Source: Bifidobacterium sp. (GTDB lineage: Bacteria; Actinomycetota; Actinomycetes; Actinomycetales; Bifidobacteriaceae). Taken from it: a DNA stretch of 64,000 nt. The position numbers were made by a program, and so were the translations under genes. The DNA lies in the NCBI RefSeq assembly GCF_022647885.1, contig NZ_JALCLM010000001.1:124001-188000 (forward strand), in the 5' to 3' direction. The notes under the pieces are model-generated. The model ran no database searches. It saw only the letters and a list, made by a program, of their open reading frames with translations, and was not told the origin of the DNA. How positions within the stretch are numbered: position 1 is the first letter of the stretch; each line of letters opens with the position of its first letter. This document shows, piece after piece, positions 9,165-60,108 of the stretch.

Positions 9165-10172
9165 TTATTGCTCACGAGCCTTATCGACCAGCGGTGCCAT
9201 AGCTTTGGCAACACCATCAAAATCAATATCGTTGACTGACCGCAACAGTGCAACATCATCGTCATTGAGATTGAACATATACCCGCCACAAATTCCACCG
9301 CAAATTGCACCGAGAGTATCTGTATCTCCCCCTATTGCAGCACAAGTGCGCACACAGGCACGGAGGTTTCCGCGATAATGATATACCACCGAAATAGCCG
9401 CTGGCACGGTTTCAATCGTCTCTAGTCCAGTTCCTAAGAACGAGTAAAGCTCATCTTTGAATTGAGCGTCATCCTTCAACTCTGCGATTCTACGACCGCA
9501 TGCGATACGTTTAAGGATGTCAGGAGTCGGAAGTTTGTTCCCATAATTAGCAGCAAGAGATGCGCTCCGACCAATGACGCTGTAGTACTCATCCCAATCA
9601 ACATCATCGTTATCAAACATGAAGCTCACTGCCGCAGCGATGATTGCAGCACCTTGAATTGCGATTTGAGTGTTATGAGTTGGCAAACAAATAGCTGCCA
9701 CATTATTCACTAATTCATCCAAATTCTGCCATGTAGACACCAATCCTATTGGTGCTATTTTCATAGCAGCTCCATTTGTGGTGCCCCATATGCCAGATTG
9801 TGATAATGGAGTGCCGTGCTTGATTGCATCAACCGCACGCTTAGTACTAGGACCAGCTACAACGGCACTTTTTTCATCGTGCTCTAACCAATCGATGAGA
9901 TATTTCACGAATATCTCTGCTTCAACCTTGCCACCAGTTTCAATGAGCATCTCACACAGAAAAATGGCATTCTCAGTATCGTCAGTTACTGTTCCTGCTT
10001 CTAAATGACGCACAAACGTTCCCAAATCGTCAGGGCTTGGTTGGAAGTCGGTGATTTCTCCATACCGCTGCTCTATCTGGGTTTTGGTGAGATTTTCCGT
10101 TGGCATGCCCATCGCATCCCCATAAGCTATGGCGAGCAGTGTTTCACGCACACGTTCTTGTGTCGTTTTCAT
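9165..10172 (-). CDS. ADP-ribosylglycohydrolase family protein
   Basis: 335 residues from the ATG at 10170-10172 (MKTTQERVRETL), which follows GGGAG. Family landmarks: LLAIAYGDAMGMPTE at the start, then TDDTENAIFL with metal-binding acidic residues, and near the C-terminus IGGDTDTLGAICGGI supplying the second metal site. Members cleave N- or O-glycosidic bonds of ADP-ribose or related ribosides with two Mg ions. Its ATG overlaps the stop of the upstream PfkB kinase as ATGA (10169-10172), so the two are translationally coupled. In that setting the substrate is more likely a small nucleoside- or ribose-derived metabolite than an ADP-ribosylated protein. That is an inference from context. Confidence 0.9.
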   Translation of the reverse strand: MKTTQERVRETLLAIAYGDAMGMPTENLTKTQIEQRYGEITDFQPSPDDLGTFVRHLEAGTVTDDTENAIFLCEMLIETGGKVEAEIFVKYLIDWLEHDEKSAVVAGPSTKRAVDAIKHGTPLSQSGIWGTTNGAAMKIAPIGLVSTWQNLDELVNNVAAICLPTHNTQIAIQGAAIIAAAVSFMFDNDDVDWDEYYSVIGRSASLAANYGNKLPTPDILKRIACGRRIAELKDDAQFKDELYSFLGTGLETIETVPAAISVVYHYRGNLRACVRTCAAIGGDTDTLGAICGGICGGYMFNLNDDDVALLRSVNDIDFDGVAKAMAPLVDKAREQ

Positions 10173-11122
10173 TGTTGACTCCCATGTTGTGTTGAGAAAA
10201 GAAACTGTTCGGCATCCGAACGCATTGGTGAAGACAGCGCTCCATAGTTCATACAAGTCAGTGCCGCACAAGCCGATGCAAACAGCAGCGACGATTCCAA
10301 GGACTGATCTCTGAGAAGATGCTCCACCATGAAGGCTGCAATAAAGGAATCCCCTGCTCCGGTTGTGTCTTTCGCCTCGATATCAAATGCGGGAATATCG
10401 CAACGCTGACCGAGTTCATCTACTGCGCTCACACCTGCACTGCCTCTGGTCAACACTATTAGCCCTTGGAAGTATTCACGAATGAAAGCAACTTGCATAT
10501 CAATGTCGCTGCTCCCAGCAAATGGCGCAATTCCCTCCTGGCAAGGAGCGAACACATCGACATATTGCAAGAACTCGATGAGGAATTGGCGGTCAATGCC
10601 CTTGGCGAGCACTGTGGAGAAATCTTCCTGCATGTTAAATACCACCAACTTGCCCAAGGCTTTGGCACGTTTGACAGCGACTAATGACAGATCTGCTGGG
10701 GTCAAATCTACATAGAGTATCGAAGTCTCACCAATGAGATCAAGGGAAGCTTCAGGTTGAGATATAGCAGGCAATCCTTTGCCTCCATCTGAATCCAAAA
10801 CCAAGGCTTTTTCCCCTTGTTCATCGACATAAATCAAACAATGAGGTGCCTGAAAACCACCACTCTGGCGAATTACGCCGCGGGTATCTACACCGATATC
10901 GCGCAAACCATTGAAAATAAGGTCGCTATCACTATCGTCAGCAATTTTCGATATGGACGCTGTCTGGGCCCCAAGACGCTGCGCTTGAACTAGTACGTTA
11001 GTGCCACTTCCCCCAAGCATGCGCATCGTTGTGCGCACAGTACAGAAACCATCACGAATGGGTAGATGGTCAACAACTTTGATGGTGTCGAGCGCGCTAC
11101 CGCCCAAACCGAGAATATCCAT
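10169..11122 (-). CDS. PfkB family sugar or nucleoside kinase
   Basis: About 317 residues from the ATG at 11120-11122, preceded by GAGGGGAAG. The upstream in-frame extension is basic and lies outside the fold. PfkB/ribokinase signature elements are visible: an N-terminal LGLGGSALDTI, the Gly motif RMLGGSGTNVLVQAQRLG, and the anion-hole/catalytic motif DTTGAGDSFIAAFMVEHLL near the C-terminus. It should phosphorylate a sugar, ribonucleoside or ribose. It is the first gene of a leftward set: kinase, coupled ADP-ribosylglycohydrolase, then a LacI regulator. The pairing suggests salvage of a ribose-containing compound. Substrate not determinable. Confidence 0.9.
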   Translation of the reverse strand: MDILGLGGSALDTIKVVDHLPIRDGFCTVRTTMRMLGGSGTNVLVQAQRLGAQTASISKIADDSDSDLIFNGLRDIGVDTRGVIRQSGGFQAPHCLIYVDEQGEKALVLDSDGGKGLPAISQPEASLDLIGETSILYVDLTPADLSLVAVKRAKALGKLVVFNMQEDFSTVLAKGIDRQFLIEFLQYVDVFAPCQEGIAPFAGSSDIDMQVAFIREYFQGLIVLTRGSAGVSAVDELGQRCDIPAFDIEAKDTTGAGDSFIAAFMVEHLLRDQSLESSLLFASACAALTCMNYGALSSPMRSDAEQFLFSTQHGSQQ

Positions 11123-11239
11123 TACTTCCCCTCTCACGACAATGTGATCACGCGGCCAACTCCACGTGCGACGGTGCAGGTGACGATCTGCACTGACCAA
11201 ACCCTTCGGTGTAGAAGCGTAGTGTTCCACTCACCCCAT

Positions 11240-11302: not shown

Positions 11303-11421
11303 TTGTGTAGGGATTCTTAAATAGCTCCCGCTCCTTGGCTGACCAAAAGGTTGAAATTCCGCCATTCTCAAATCGGACGGGACTACCTATACTTACGGTC
11401 TCACTAAAAATCCCTACACAA
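11303..11421. repeat. 119-bp noncoding element with 13-bp terminal inverted repeats (copy A)
   Basis: The ends are a perfect inverted repeat: TTGTGTAGGGATT at 11303-11315 and AATCCCTACACAA at 11409-11421. Inside, further pairing is possible: ATAG 11321-11324 with CTAT 11387-11390, TCCCG 11326-11330 with CGGGA 11378-11382, and CCTT 11333-11336 with AAGG 11347-11350. The same 13-bp ends bound another element at 37498-37607. It lies in the 328-bp gap (11123-11450) between the kinase promoter and the 3' end of the SNF2 gene and contains no convincing open frame. It could be a MITE-like element or a structured RNA. Confidence 0.7.
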
Positions 11422-11450: not shown

Positions 11451-14400
11451 TCACCCCAATAAAGCCAGCAGGTCGTCCTTAGTTAAGGCCGATAGCGAGC
11501 TTCCGGACGATGCTGAAGCATCATTCACGAAACGTGTTGCCAAATCTGTCTTGGAATGCTGCAGAGCCAAGATACGCTCTTCGATAGTATCTTTGGCAAC
11601 AATCTGGTACACATTAACATCCTGTGTTTGACCAATACGATGAGCTCTATCCGTCGCCTGATCCTGTGCAGCCGCATTCCACCAAGGGTCTGCATGAACC
11701 ACCACGCAAGCACCCGTTAAATTGAGCCCTGTATTGCCAGCCTTCAGTGAAATAAGGAACACCGGAGTCTCATCGCGATTGAATTGCTCAACTAACTCCA
11801 CTCTGCGCTTCTTGGCTGTAGAACCAGTAATCACGTCATACTGCACGCCCACAGATCGCAGCCTCTCGGCAATTAAATCTAGATAACTGGTGAACTGTGA
11901 GAAGATCAGCATCTTCCTACTAGCATCACGGCAATTTGCCACTAGCTCTTCTATAGCATCAAGTTTTGCTGAGGTTCCAGACTTAGTACTGCCTGCAAGT
12001 TCAGGAAGTTTGTCATAAATCAATCGCGGATCGCAGCACACCTGTCGCAGTCTCATCAGCTGAGCAAGAATCTGAATCTTTCCTTGCTCAAAATCAAGGT
12101 CTTGCTGCTTGTTCAAACTCATCCGTAGCTTCTGCTCAAGAGCTGCATACAACTTTCGCTGCTCTCCTTCAAGACGAACAGTGACCACATTCTCAATTTT
12201 GTCTGGAAGGTCCTTTAATACCTCAGACTTCAAACGTCTGAGCATAAATGGCCCCACAAAGGCTTGCAGTTTATGCTGTGCATGCTCATCGCCGCTCAGA
12301 ATAGGCATCTCAAAGCGATCACGGAAATGCCGGTAACTACCAAGAATCCCTGGCATGAGCACGTCAAAAATGCTCCACAATTCAGATAGACGATTCTCAA
12401 TAGGCGTGCCTGTTAATGCAAATTTGTGACGGGCATCAATAGAGCGAACTGCCCTCGAAGATAGCGTTGCATGGTTCTTGATGTACTGAGCTTCATCCAA
12501 TACCAAGGAGAAGCATGAGATATCTTCATAATCCTCAATATCTCGGCGCAATAAATCATATGAAGTAACTAATACATCGCTCTGCGTGTAATGCTGCAAT
12601 ATGTCTCTGCGCTCAGACTTGCTACCTGCCACGATTGACACCCTGATATCGGGTGTAAATTTTGCGCACTCTGCAGCCCAGTTATAAACCAACGATGCAG
12701 GGCAAACAATCAAGCTAGGGCCAACCTTGCGTGATTCAGTCAATCGTCCAAGGAGGAAGGAAAGCAACTGAACCGTTTTTCCCAAGCCCATCTCATCGGC
12801 AAGTATTCCACCGAAACCTTTGTCGCTCAGGGCATTGAGCCAACGGAAACCTTCGACCTGGTATGGGCGAAGTACACCTTCAAAGACTTCAGGTAGAGCA
12901 TATGTTGCAGGATCTACTGCTTTCATATCTTCTAGGTATGCGGTGAAGCTCGAGTCTTTGTCTTGTTCGTCAACCTGACTGTCCAAATAGTATGCCTCAA
13001 AAGCCGGTACCTTGACAGCTCCCTTGTCCAAATCAGCAGTGGATAGTCCTAAATCGCTCGACACTTCATCCAGCGCTTCAACATCCATGTTTCGCACATC
13101 CACAAACGATCCATCGTGTAAGCGGTGGTAGCGTTTGCGACGTCGATAGCTGGCTAGCAATGCCGGAATATCAACCGGATCAATTTCGTCTGCAATAGGG
13201 GAAATTTCAACCAAACCGGACTTCACCGAAAGACCAAGTTTGATTATCGGATGACTTACAGCAGTAAGCCCATCGAAGGCAGGCGTAGAAAATACCTCCC
13301 CCATGCTTCTGAGCACAGCAAGGCCTTCGTTGAGCAGCTTATAGATAGCCTCATCCTGCGCTTCAGCAATTCTTGCCACAGCTCCTTGCGGGCGTGGGAA
13401 ATAATGTCGGACCGCTTCAACAGCTAAACGTTCAGTTTCTTTGTCTCTTACGACACCCGAACCAGATTGCGCACCATCGAATACGTGGAAGCGATCATCT
13501 CCATATCTGGCCTGCAGATCGCAAGTAATTCCTTCTGCGTCTCGGTCCAAATATATTTCAATATTGCAAGGAAGCTTCCTCAATCGCAACAGCTCATCAG
13601 GCAAAGATGCTGGTATTCCTATCGTCCCTGCGCTAGCTTTTGCCGCTGGGTCTTGGGTGCTCACCGCATGAACTGAGCTCAACACAGGAAGTACTGTGCG
13701 AACAAAGGCATCAACATCCTGTTTACCAAGATATAAGGAATCGCCCTCACTGTTGCCACACAGTACGGCCAGAAGATTGCTGTTTCTCACAAACACGTCG
13801 GAACAACGAAAAATTCGAGGATAATCAGATCCATCGAGTTGTTTTCCAGCTACTGGGCGCACCATAACAAATGATGAGCGATGACCCTTAACAAAACGTT
13901 CAATACACAAGTCAGCATGAATGGTGAAATCTTGCGATTGCACATTCGCTGATGATTGTGCTCCTGAATCACTAGACTCGATTACCAAACCTAATTCAGG
14001 GTTTCCATCCACAACGAGTGCCGGCATCGAAGCCATGAAATACTGTTCTGGTGGCGCATACTCAACCGGAATGCCTGAGTCCACATACAAATCGAGCAAT
14101 TCGGCAATTTCGTCCTCAGAAAGCGGCATGGCAGTTGAAGCCACTTTATGAGATCGCCGATAACTATCACCACGATGACTACTCACACTGTCGCGAATCT
14201 CAACAGCCCTGTCGAGAATATCGAGCACACTTTTAGCACGGTCATCAAAAGCATCTCGTGTGTGCACAAAACCGAGTTTCTTGCCATAAGCCACATATTG
14301 TTGCCATCGAACCGCCCTGACGAGCTCATGAATGTCCTTGACAACATAATTAATGCCGTGCGCGGGTACCGTGATGTGCAAACGAAGCTGCCAACCAACC

Positions 14401-15086
14401 GACGTATATTCAATGCTTGGGCGCAGGCTGACTGTACCAATGCCCATTCTGTGGTTAGGCTGCGAGACCACACCAGCTCCGCCAGAATCGGCCAGACTAC
14501 CGACTTCCTTGAGCAATTCGAGCTGACGAGTTTTCGCCTGTTGCTTCAGATCAGCGTCTTGCTGCAACATAAAAGCTTGAAGCTCTCTGGATGTCCGCTG
14601 CACTGGCCTACGTGGAGCATCACCCTCGCGCTGTTGAAACTCGTCAGGATTGTCGTTATATGCCATAACCACAGCAATTACGTGTTTGCACAGGGAACCG
14701 AATCTACCAAATGCTGGGCATGAGCAAGCAGCATCGGTAATATCTCCGGCATTCTGATCTACGGTTGCGCTAACGCGGTAATCGGAGCTGAGACCTTCAA
14801 TTCCGTCTACCGTCGCTGACAATACGAGCGAATCGCCTTCTGAAGCACTGCTGAGATTATGTAAACGTCCACTACTGATGACTTGATATGCGCGAAAGTA
14901 TGCAGATCCTCCTCGTTGTTTGAGAGTCGAATCGGGTACGACCTGCCAATGACCATAGGTCACTCCATCACCGAAACCTTGTTGTTCTTGAATGCCGTTG
15001 CCCCTGTTGTTGGGTCCCAAACCTGATTCATCTGCAAGTCGCCTTGTCTTCGTGCCATACACCGGCGAGCGCCAATTCAATTCCAA
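11451..15086 (-). CDS. SWIM zinc-finger SNF2-family DEAD/DEAH helicase
   Basis: About 1211 residues. An N-terminal SWIM zinc finger has the CxC-x9-CxH pattern (C121, C123, C133, H135). A long middle region typical of bacterial SNF2_N-associated proteins follows, then the Swi2/Snf2 ATPase: Walker A in ADEMGLGKTVQ, the DEAQ box LVLDEAQYIKN, LTGTPIENRLSELWSI, and in the second RecA lobe GNTGLNLTGA and QATDRAHRIGQ. Such proteins are DNA-dependent translocases (RapA/HepA relatives); their cellular role is not established. The frame opens with TTG at 15086, and another TTG at 15080 is better spaced from GTGAGG, so the exact start is open. No obvious operon partner. Confidence 0.93.
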   Translation of the reverse strand: MELNWRSPVYGTKTRRLADESGLGPNNRGNGIQEQQGFGDGVTYGHWQVVPDSTLKQRGGSAYFRAYQVISSGRLHNLSSASEGDSLVLSATVDGIEGLSSDYRVSATVDQNAGDITDAACSCPAFGRFGSLCKHVIAVVMAYNDNPDEFQQREGDAPRRPVQRTSRELQAFMLQQDADLKQQAKTRQLELLKEVGSLADSGGAGVVSQPNHRMGIGTVSLRPSIEYTSVGWQLRLHITVPAHGINYVVKDIHELVRAVRWQQYVAYGKKLGFVHTRDAFDDRAKSVLDILDRAVEIRDSVSSHRGDSYRRSHKVASTAMPLSEDEIAELLDLYVDSGIPVEYAPPEQYFMASMPALVVDGNPELGLVIESSDSGAQSSANVQSQDFTIHADLCIERFVKGHRSSFVMVRPVAGKQLDGSDYPRIFRCSDVFVRNSNLLAVLCGNSEGDSLYLGKQDVDAFVRTVLPVLSSVHAVSTQDPAAKASAGTIGIPASLPDELLRLRKLPCNIEIYLDRDAEGITCDLQARYGDDRFHVFDGAQSGSGVVRDKETERLAVEAVRHYFPRPQGAVARIAEAQDEAIYKLLNEGLAVLRSMGEVFSTPAFDGLTAVSHPIIKLGLSVKSGLVEISPIADEIDPVDIPALLASYRRRKRYHRLHDGSFVDVRNMDVEALDEVSSDLGLSTADLDKGAVKVPAFEAYYLDSQVDEQDKDSSFTAYLEDMKAVDPATYALPEVFEGVLRPYQVEGFRWLNALSDKGFGGILADEMGLGKTVQLLSFLLGRLTESRKVGPSLIVCPASLVYNWAAECAKFTPDIRVSIVAGSKSERRDILQHYTQSDVLVTSYDLLRRDIEDYEDISCFSLVLDEAQYIKNHATLSSRAVRSIDARHKFALTGTPIENRLSELWSIFDVLMPGILGSYRHFRDRFEMPILSGDEHAQHKLQAFVGPFMLRRLKSEVLKDLPDKIENVVTVRLEGEQRKLYAALEQKLRMSLNKQQDLDFEQGKIQILAQLMRLRQVCCDPRLIYDKLPELAGSTKSGTSAKLDAIEELVANCRDASRKMLIFSQFTSYLDLIAERLRSVGVQYDVITGSTAKKRRVELVEQFNRDETPVFLISLKAGNTGLNLTGACVVVHADPWWNAAAQDQATDRAHRIGQTQDVNVYQIVAKDTIEERILALQHSKTDLATRFVNDASASSGSSLSALTKDDLLALLG

Positions 15087-37260: not shown

Positions 37261-37310
37261 TTCTATGCCCTAATGCGCGTGCGTCATCTCCCGCACTGTG
37301 TACACGCCCC

Positions 37311-37340
37311 ACACCCACACCCACACCCACACCCACACCC
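37311..37340. repeat. Tandem ACACCC hexamer, 5 copies
   Basis: Five ACACCC units at 37311-37340 following CCCC, with more CACCC-rich sequence up to about 37374. Simple repeat in the noncoding 592-bp gap 37209-37800; prone to slippage. Confidence 0.95.
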
Positions 37341-37497
37341 AGTATGTAAACACCCACTGTGTGTAACACCCACCACAAAATACCGAGTGCGCATTCTCCC
37401 ATATCTAGAACGGAGTTTTCGGCCAGTTATGCAGTGTATTACACACTCTGGGGAAGTATGAGCCCATATGAGTACGCGAAAATCACCAGAGCGTCGG

Positions 37498-37607
37498 TTG
37501 TGTAGGGATTGTCTGGCAAATAGCGCATGCACAATTAGCAGAATCGTTGCAATTCCAGGCTTTCTTGATTCTATGGCATCGCTAGCGCAACAGTAATCCC
37601 TACACAA
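37498..37607. repeat. 110-bp noncoding element with 13-bp terminal inverted repeats (copy B)
   Basis: Ends TTGTGTAGGGATT (37498-37510) and AATCCCTACACAA (37595-37607), identical to those of copy A at 11303-11421. The interior is mostly different but again nested: TAGCG 37521-37525 with CGCTA 37580-37584, and AGAATC 37540-37545 with GATTCT 37567-37572. Short matches to copy A remain (AAATAGC near the left end; GTTG-AATTCC near the middle). It sits between the convergent GH13 and MalG-type genes. No protein-coding frame fits it. A MITE or a structured RNA are the main options. Confidence 0.7.
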
Positions 37608-48263: not shown

Positions 48264-48278
48264 CTGGTAACGTGTAAA

Positions 48279-48395
48279 GCGGCAACGTGCTACTCTCCCA
48301 CACCCTAACGAGTGCAGTACCATCGCCGTGCTAGGTCTTAGCTTCCAGGTTCGGAATGGAGCTGGGCGTTTCCCCTAGGCTATGGTCGCCGCAAA
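48279..48395 (-). rRNA. rrf: 5S ribosomal RNA, operon A
   Basis: About 117 nt. On the minus strand it reads TTTGCGGCGACCATAGCC... and contains the universal CCGAACCTGGAAG region and terminal GGGTGTGGGAGAGTAG. Ends are estimated to within a few bases. Between it and the 23S gene is GGAACCGGATAGTGGACGCG, a motif repeated in the 16S-23S spacer. Confidence 0.95.
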
Positions 48396-48547
48396 TCTTG
48401 AATTGTCATCCCCGTGTTACAGGAATGGTATGTGGCCGCTTGGGAACCGGATAGTGGACGCGATGTATATCGTTTGTGAATCAACAAGTGCTCCTTGTTG
48501 AAGTCATATTGCTAGAAGGACTTACGGTATCCATCCAACCCTAAAGT

Positions 48548-53514
<4,967 letters not shown>

Positions 53515-54857: not shown

Positions 54858-54872
54858 CTGGTAACGTGTAAA

Positions 54873-54989
54873 GCGGCAACGTGCTACTCTCCCACACCCT
54901 AACGAGTGCAGTACCATCGCCGTGCTAGGTCTTAGCTTCCAGGTTCGGAATGGAGCTGGGCGTTTCCCCTAGGCTATGGTCGCCGCAAA
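54873..54989 (-). rRNA. rrf: 5S ribosomal RNA, operon B
   Basis: Same sequence as the operon A gene at offset 6594; about 117 nt, ends estimated. Confidence 0.95.
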
Positions 54990-55141
54990 TCTTGAATTGT
55001 CATCCCCGTGTTACAGGAATGGTATGTGGCCGCTTGGGAACCGGATAGTGGACGCGATGTATATCGTTTGTGAATCAACAAGTGCTCCTTGTTGAAGTCA
55101 TATTGCTAGAAGGACTTACGGTATCCATCCAACCCTAAAGT

Positions 55142-60108
<4,967 letters not shown>

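Follow-up and report, generated by a model that had tools for sequence, protein, structure and literature searches.

A dispersed family of short intergenic DNA elements with inverted ends and a helically phased core in two Bifidobacterium species

Results

Elements A and B in the window

The window analyzed here is a stretch of 64 kb from a Bifidobacterium genome (hereafter G000), which consists of one contig of 2,342,264 bp. It contains two short elements, A and B, each bounded by a 13-bp sequence and its inverted copy. These inverted ends had been described in an earlier note on the same DNA, and our analysis confirmed them at exactly 11303-11421 (119 bp) and 37498-37607 (110 bp). The following features were placed at the two loci:

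10169..11230, minus strand: left neighbor of element A, an ORF of 353 aa (pfkB-type sugar kinase by eye)
11303..11421, no strand: element A, 119 bp, long-arm class, with arms of 54 and 65 bp from the core dyad
11303..11315, plus strand: element A end site 1, TTGTGTAGGGATT
11347..11370, plus strand: element A core, AAGGTTGAAATTCCGCCATTCTCA, with its dyad between 11356 and 11357 (from the motif position)
11409..11421, minus strand: element A end site 2, inverted TTGTGTAGGGATT
11451..15086, minus strand: right neighbor of element A, an ORF of 1211 aa (SNF2-type helicase by eye) whose 3' end lies about 30 bp from the element
37498..37607, no strand: element B, 110 bp, standard class, with arms of 55 and 55 bp
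37498..37510, plus strand: element B end site 1, TTGTGTAGGGATT
37539..37562, minus strand: element B core, AAGCCTGGAATTGCAACGATTCTG on the minus strand, with its dyad between 37552 and 37553 (from the motif position)
37595..37607, minus strand: element B end site 2, inverted TTGTGTAGGGATT

Element A presents a tandem context: both neighbor genes are on one strand, with gaps of 72 and 29 bp. The window holds only four exact copies of the 13-bp end, which are the ends of elements A and B. Upstream of element B, CCCACA units form a short tandem array (window about 37308-37341). A scan of the window with Rfam returned nothing at element A or B and detected rRNAs only. These belong to two complete rRNA operons (window 48277-53512 and 54871-60106), which form a direct tandem with a distance of about 6.6 kb; each of the three rRNAs has the same Rfam score in both operons.

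No described bifidobacterial family with such ends was known to the earlier note, and we reached the same conclusion: Rfam is empty at both loci, and we found no matching bifidobacterial family in the open literature. In the literature text that was accessible to searching, the 13-mer itself was absent and its complement appeared only in a paper on rabbit microsatellite markers. The matches listed did not include a comparable repeat family from bifidobacteria, and the available text of a survey of REP sequences (PMC12306157) does not mention bifidobacteria.

A dispersed family of elements

We searched G000 for the 13-mer TTGTGTAGGGATT with at most one mismatch, using the pattern read backwards as a control. 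A total of 105 forward and 104 reverse sites were found, relative to 1 and 0 for the control, and chance is therefore excluded. The earlier note had proposed a search of the whole genome and of related genomes, which uncovered a dispersed family in G000 and in a further species of the genus, the second carrier G090, where 74 end sites are forward and 75 are reverse. The concern that the two elements of the window could be the only copies, with ends that are not conserved, did not hold, given the number of end sites in the genome and the preservation of the ends at orthologous loci.

An inverted partner was observed less than 200 bp away for 96 of the 100 forward ends listed (of 105) in G000, so that MITE-like terminal inverted repeats are present. 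The other four ends among those listed comprise three outward-facing arrangements (L011, L031, and L080) and one end standing alone (L079). These four lack an inward partner and were excluded, which leaves a working set of 96 elements for G000. The working set of G090 includes 59 distinct paired elements at fetched loci (L109, L110, L122, and L138 were excluded), and the pooled set contains 155 elements. Ten further elements outside of the 155 (3 of G000 and 7 of G090, in L224-L233) were used as a check set. Both ends are perfect in 60 of the 96 G000 elements and in 32 of the 59 G090 elements.

The consensus of the ends extends to CGT-TTGTGTAGGGATT-TT. Outside of the end, elements of the 108-110 class present a C at position -2 in 122 of 138 ends, a G at position -1 in 103, and a T at position 0 in 104. 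The trinucleotides found on both sides of element A (CGA/CGA) and of element B (TCG/TCG) had previously been taken as a hint of a 3-bp target duplication. Our data do not support this interpretation: the flanking CG(T)/ACG is a symmetric, inverted extension of the end motif. The nearest non-carrier to the two carriers, judged by two proteins, is G086, and its empty sites are too diverged to align, so that a target duplication is unreadable there.

Length classes and central core

The lengths of the elements fall into discrete classes. In G000 (n = 96), we observed lengths of 88 bp (2 elements), 98-99 bp (15), 108-110 bp (69), and 119-121 bp (10), with none between. The same distribution was found in G090 (n = 59), with lengths of 88 bp (1 element), 97-98 bp (12), 107-111 bp (42), and 119-121 bp (4). 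The Rayleigh R of these lengths at 10.5 bp is 0.91 in G000, 0.90 in G090, and 0.89 for the pooled set, relative to a mean of 0.07 and a maximum of 0.25 across 5000 draws in which each length was jittered by half a period. The best-fitting period of the whole lengths is 11.0-11.1 bp. All ten elements of the check set were in class (98, 98, 108, 108, 109 five times, and 119 bp).

A de novo, two-strand motif search of all 155 interiors, starting near the center, yielded one 24-bp core motif, aacgtTGgAATTCCGCCATTtTtg, of about 16.8-16.9 bits. When the interiors were shuffled and searched three times from an identical start, the motifs obtained reached 6.7-6.9 bits at best and presented no positional preference. 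The motif holds a dyad core of approximately GTTGgAATTCCGCCATT (dyad AATT), whose consensus can also be written as approximately AAnGTTGGAATTCCGCCATTTT. With the exception of a few rows, the dyad AATT is central in the 107-110 and 88 classes and lies about 5 bp off center in the 97-99 and 119-121 classes.

When measured from the dyad, the arms average 44.1, 54.4, and 65.3 bp (respectively, 32, 256, and 15 arms), which corresponds to steps of 10.4 and 10.8 bp between classes. Both arms measure 43-45, 53-55, or 65-66 bp in 151 of the 155 elements, the exceptions being L101, L123, L141, and L156 of G090. The R of arm lengths is 0.925, against 0.03-0.10 in shuffled interiors, and the best-fitting period is 10.5-11 bp, although it is not sharply defined within 10-11.5 bp. 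Because the arms measure about 44, 54.5, or 65 bp and almost never fall between, the rotational register from end to core to end is fixed. By rounding to the nearest turn, 152 of the 155 elements are described by six combinations of arms: 109 are standard on both sides, 22 and 4 have one arm shorter by a turn, 9 and 5 have one longer arm, and 3 have both arms shorter. This indicates that one helical turn has been gained or lost independently on either side.

The two halves of the core are unequal, one being strong (GGCGGAA in 43 of the 155 elements) and the other variable. The strong side is opposite in 18 of 43 ortholog pairs, which implies that the core acts as a symmetric site; in the 25 pairs that agree on the strong side, the core is 63% identical. 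The sequence of the spacer is largely free, with weaker preferences for A.A at 21-23 and AGTAT at 29-33. The A/T content along the arms showed no peak at 10.5 bp, which places the phasing in the three sites themselves rather than in any visible pattern of wrapping. Each element is a site on double-stranded DNA in which three regions are conserved: two inverted ends and a central dyad core.

Conservation at orthologous loci

Based on flanking ORFs, 43 of the 59 G090 elements share their locus with a G000 element, and both flanks are conserved for 37 of them. Among the fetched loci, 16 G090 elements and 53 of the 96 G000 elements had no partner, and decayed sites among these 53 would escape notice. 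Across the 43 ortholog pairs, 1073 of the 1118 positions of the ends are identical (96%), a value that is conditioned on finding elements by their ends and leaves lost sites uncounted. The interiors of the same pairs present a mean identity of 0.50, relative to 0.45 between unrelated elements, and only a few pairs are more similar (e.g., 0.73 for L149/L093). The 40-bp flanks have diverged as much as the interiors (P = 0.46; Wilcoxon test; 43 pairs).

The length is also preserved at these loci: the two members differ by at most 2 bp in 38 of the 43 pairs, by one full turn in four pairs, and by 13 bp in one pair, whose G090 left end contains three mismatches. Neutral sequences of such age would not be expected to keep 26 positions at 43 loci. 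Since ends and length are kept while interiors and flanks are near saturation, we read these comparisons as selection on the ends and on the rotational phase at single sites.

The three outward-facing arrangements are kept in both carriers as well, with start-to-start distances of 116, 116, and 74 bp. In two of these loci the core is at the same place in both species (and weak in one species of each); the third has no core.

The rplL locus, with flanks that are 95% and 80% identical and an interior that is 57% identical, could suggest that interiors are hyper-mutating. We rejected this possibility, as flanks and interiors are equally diverged over the 43 pairs. Copying from or to L124 (89% alike) is a simpler account of the rplL locus.

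Copied interiors and bracketed genes

Few elements are nearly identical to one another. G000 presents a single such pair (L040/L090; 95% over 113 bp; inverted). In G090, we found the pair L102/L104 (97% over 110 bp; direct), to which L107 is 82-83% identical (inverted), and the pair L124/L125 (89% over 116 bp; inverted). When the whole loci of near-identical copies were compared, the long match ended within a few bases of the element. Interiors are otherwise rarely shared: one G000 pair is alike throughout and all other matches in this genome are at most 51 bp long, and G090 contains one trio and one pair.

The loci of L040, L090, L107, L104, and L125 hold unrelated elements in the other species. 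The occupation of the L040 and L090 loci by other elements in G090 points to the replacement of an interior at an occupied site, and entire interiors seem to have been substituted at the existing sites. The shared end measures only about 13-18 bp on each side, which makes ordinary homologous gene conversion appear improbable.

We identified two modules that are bracketed by elements in one species and absent from the corresponding locus of the other. In G090, L102 and L104 enclose genes for a LacI-type regulator, a RhaT/GlcU-type symporter, and a sucrose-6-phosphate-hydrolase-type enzyme (the first two names are below the NCBIfam cut-offs and the third is above its cut-off); G000 has the single element L008 there. 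In G000, L004 and L005 enclose a gene of 301 aa (L219 4932-5834), for which G090 has one element, and the protein has no Pfam or NCBIfam match. Apart from weak LacI-type matches, the bracketed genes were not found in the parts of the other species' genome that were searched. L006/L007 constitutes a counter-example: the enclosed gene is present in both species and G090 has no elements. The number of cases is small, and neither is backed by a test against chance. The bracketed modules and the few near-identical copies in unrelated flanks suggest rare copying or recombination.

Search for an associated protein

We searched the genomes for proteins that could act on these elements. Y1_Tnp (PF01797) was found in none of six genomes, including both carriers, but in 5 of 14 control genomes, and RAYT is thus absent from the genomes searched. 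No serine recombinase was matched in G000. Each carrier presents five matches to Phage_integrase, and neither contains a tyrosine recombinase trio (RIT/MIC), as judged by position. Three tyrosine recombinases are apparently common to the carriers: XerC, XerD (for both of which the correspondence relies on match rank and position only), and an integrase of 450 aa. Each has a counterpart in G086. A carrier-specific recombinase was therefore rejected for the families covered, as no tyrosine recombinase was seen to be common to the carriers and absent from G086, and G000 gave no serine recombinase match.

The 450-aa integrase (L258 861-2211 in G000, L253 861-2211 in G090, and L255 in G086) is 100% identical between the carriers and 99% identical to the G086 protein. 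Its region presents 96% DNA identity between the carriers, 94% with G086, and 99% with G096 over 2.9 kb. The surrounding 3.5 kb are 94-96% identical, which is closer than most of the flanking genes compared. The presence of this integrase in G086 with 99% protein and 94% DNA identity makes it look separately transferred, and the region likely represents a recently shared integrated element.

Distribution in other genomes

Exact pairs of ends were detected in two of 151 genomes of the family and, among 396 genomes of the phylum, only in the genome of the window itself. Viral contigs contained no exact pair in two scans, and the pair pattern was not found among named genomes, a set that may omit records close to G000. 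With a sequence profile, the family was detected among 27 genomes of the genus in G000 and G090, in addition to a marginal match in G100 (E = 0.0095). Among 121 genomes of the family, 11 presented matches at E ≤ 0.001, corresponding to the two carriers and to nine genomes with one to six matches. The best of these relatives are three elements of G064 (E = 2.8e-8, 4.8e-6, and 2.7e-5) and one element of G120 (E = 4.5e-6), all matched on both strands, as expected of a dyad-symmetric element. The matches in G081, G083, G099, G105, G106, and G113 cover the profile partially and on one strand, and may be due to chance or something else. Inferred from match coordinates, the relatives at C15:40670, C31:15623, and C13:3002 of G064 span near 128, 118, and 98 bp, that at C19:225418 of G120 near 128 bp, and that at C2:173259 of G046 (one strand) near 108 bp, again in steps of about ten. 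G064, G120, and G046 belong to other genera of the family, where the relatives are diverged and of low copy number.

In contrast to the carriers, G086 has no intact element at 50 mapped orthologous loci, and its gaps are shorter by at least 60 bp at 39 of them. We searched 1.08 Mb of this genome for decayed elements. The best end-like site (G086:C9:291309; 16.1 bits) lies at the locus orthologous to L024, which is only a hint that it may be a relic and that the family may predate the two carriers. The other 49 loci have no end-like site near 16.1 bits, and the reversed-matrix control reached 14.0 bits in the same 1.08 Mb. An analogous family with other ends was rejected for G086, as no 13-mer was present in more than four copies in 280 kb.

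Discussion

About a hundred intergenic DNA elements form one real, functional-looking family, which is not RNA. Because the elements may have originated as MITEs, we group this family with the known short dispersed bacterial elements with inverted ends and do not rank it as wholly new. To our knowledge, and within the open literature covered, neither the helical rule linking end, core, and end nor the conservation of such elements site by site has been described in bacteria.

The reading that we favor, with about an even chance of being correct, is that the element is a double-stranded DNA site for a putative recombinase- or transposase-like complex that would bind three points and copy or bracket DNA at a low rate. 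A putative protein complex would grip both ends and the core together and would bend, wrap, or loop the roughly 110 bp into a closed complex. The element would then be treated as one unit and copied to, or over, other sites at a low rate, and genes that are gained or lost could become bracketed by elements. Continued use, by the complex or by the host, might keep the ends and the phasing intact. Sharp-edged copies and bracketed genes would be accounted for by a recombinase- or transposase-like complex, and selection at fixed sites by an architectural one. Against this reading, recent copies are few (one G000 pair and two G090 sets) and the recombinase searches were negative.

A more specific version, which we consider unlikely on balance, would be a bacterial recombination system with about 100 end-core-end cassette sites, in which a putative enzyme copies sites and inserts or removes modules; such a system would resemble integrons but operate on dispersed double-stranded DNA. 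If this were true, the diverged relatives in other bifidobacterial genera would make the system old in the family. Integron attC sites are short sites that border gene cassettes and function as folded single strands, and phage attP sites possess a core that is flanked by arm sites. The elements resemble the former in bordering cassette-like genes and the latter in combining a core with flanking arms. However, a folded strand would favor pairing between the arms, which was not seen here, although the ends could pair, and neither an integron integrase nor a dedicated phage integrase was tied to the family.

For the length rule, the closest analogue in the literature is eukaryotic. According to the available parts of two studies (PMC3408717, PMC3464196), the internal eliminated sequences (IESs) of Paramecium have ends with a conserved consensus, interiors that decay fast, and a size periodicity of about 10 bp that is read as helical phasing of a transpososome-like excision complex. 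IESs are likewise short, with conserved ends, decaying interiors, and an approximately helical size rule; unlike our elements, they have a weak end consensus and are excised from the somatic genome, and those parts mention no central core. The bacterial family is distinguished by near-invariant ends of 13 bp and by a core that is phased with each end. REPINs, as described in the accessible text of one study (PMC8049555), are comparable in copy number (about 100 per genome), in their inverted conserved ends with a short diverse spacer, and in their long persistence. They differ in being duplicated by RAYT, the REP-associated tyrosine transposase, whose domain (Y1_Tnp) is absent from both carriers, and the lengths of our elements are helically phased. 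Finally, bifidobacteria harbor other mobile units: in the sections available, the mobile integrase cassette (MIC) combines three integrases with an inverted repeat of 96 bp and a palindrome of 20 bp (PMC2430713), and RIT elements consist of recombinase trios (PMC3414803). The repeats printed for the MIC differ by eye from the ends and core reported here, and no trio of adjacent recombinases was seen in either carrier.

Each genome offers about a hundred natural variants, which across two species amounts to a ready-made saturation experiment. The parts that are kept (the ends, the core, and the rotational phase of each arm) would outline the footprint of the putative protein complex, the spacer being nearly free. 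Elements that move DNA would represent a novel class of mobile or cassette site in bacteria, and elements with an architectural role would be lineage-specific fixed landmarks of the chromosome. Either way, they would provide a bacterial match, more sharply defined, to the helical size rule of ciliate DNA elimination.

The strongest rival, although rather improbable in our view, is a site of chromosome architecture or insulation that a lineage-specific nucleoid or topology protein would wrap and for which the host would select. In line with this hypothesis, orthologous loci keep the ends and the phase, and the convergent placement at gene ends would fit it equally well. Gene contexts were analyzed for 88 elements with long flanks (29 of G000 and 59 of G090; L031-L100 were excluded because their flanks are too short). 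A greedily called ORF overlaps 16 of these, and the 72 contexts that were scored comprise 33 tandem, 32 convergent, and 7 divergent cases; many elements are located between convergent genes or 15-40 bp past the end of a gene. Furthermore, the elements are found all round the G000 chromosome. We used 102 positions (99 of the 100 listed, without the lone end L079, plus 2227078, 2314825, and 2332031), whose gaps present a CV of 1.01 relative to 0.99 under the null, and gaps shorter than 5 kb are rarer than random (10 vs 19.8). However, this CV is that of random positions, and regularly spaced landmarks were therefore rejected. An apparent depletion around coordinate 0, which came in part from a listing of 100 of the 105 matches, was rejected as a depletion of the origin: three further positions were added, dnaA is located at 288,828, and the largest gap has a P of 0.15 under random placement. 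An architectural role is also at odds with the absence of the elements from the closest relative at the 50 mapped loci, and neither sharp-edged recent copies nor bracketed gene modules would be expected from it. The putative recombinase- or transposase-like complex remains our preferred reading.

We consider quite unlikely an ordinary burst of MITEs, that is, non-autonomous copies of a lost insertion sequence whose phasing reflects the transposition competence of very short transposons and whose interiors have decayed. MITE families typically share an interior common to their copies and derived from an IS. The present elements have little interior sequence in common apart from the phased core region, and the few close element pairs that we inspected showed no IS bounded by such ends. 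The earlier note had offered a MITE with diverged cargo as one reading. The sharp-ended recent duplicates and the empty G086 loci agree with this proposal, as do the inverted ends and the intergenic placement; the notion of diverged cargo is at variance with an interior that holds a phased core and with ends and phase that are kept at orthologous loci. After a simple burst, ends (96% identical) and phase should have no reason to persist at orthologous loci whose interiors and flanks become saturated, and the phase of the core is kept relative to each end independently. Like our elements, bacterial MITEs (e.g., Correia elements) are, in the text available, short, intergenic, and bounded by terminal inverted repeats, and an IHF site has been reported in a Correia element (PMC10969869). 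Helical periodicity of short excised DNA is also known from the available parts of the studies on Paramecium IESs (PMC3408717, PMC3464196), which is in favor of such a burst.

It is very improbable that the elements serve as operators for a global transcription regulator, with looping from one phased site to another. Only 7 of the 72 contexts are divergent, and many elements lie behind gene ends, away from promoters. Looping operators combine a dyad core with phased distal sites, an organization to which the elements do bear a likeness.

The least credible explanation is a structured RNA family or an RNA-processing hairpin. Nested pairing inside the outer stems of A and B had been noted earlier, and the two 13-bp ends are indeed complementary and could pair. 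However, the arms inside do not covary: across 111 elements of the main class, matching at mirror positions was 0.317, relative to 0.317 (sd 0.007) for arms of different elements, and one of 40 mirror positions (46) reached a z of 2.9. Nested pairing is therefore not a feature of the family. The missing covariation, together with lengths that step by one helical turn about the dyad, which is a property of double-stranded DNA, and with the absence of an Rfam match, disfavors the structured-RNA reading of the earlier note.

Some interiors do fold: a stable hairpin (z below -2; mononucleotide shuffles) was predicted in 22.5% of the 111 interiors. These hairpins, found in about a fifth of the interiors, may represent terminators, as many elements occupy the intervals that separate the ends of genes. 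In addition, a long, perfect-looking hairpin lies beside one outward-facing element in both carriers (L011 from 1325 and L109 from 1442). Its stem differs between the two species and still pairs, which by eye corresponds to compensatory change.
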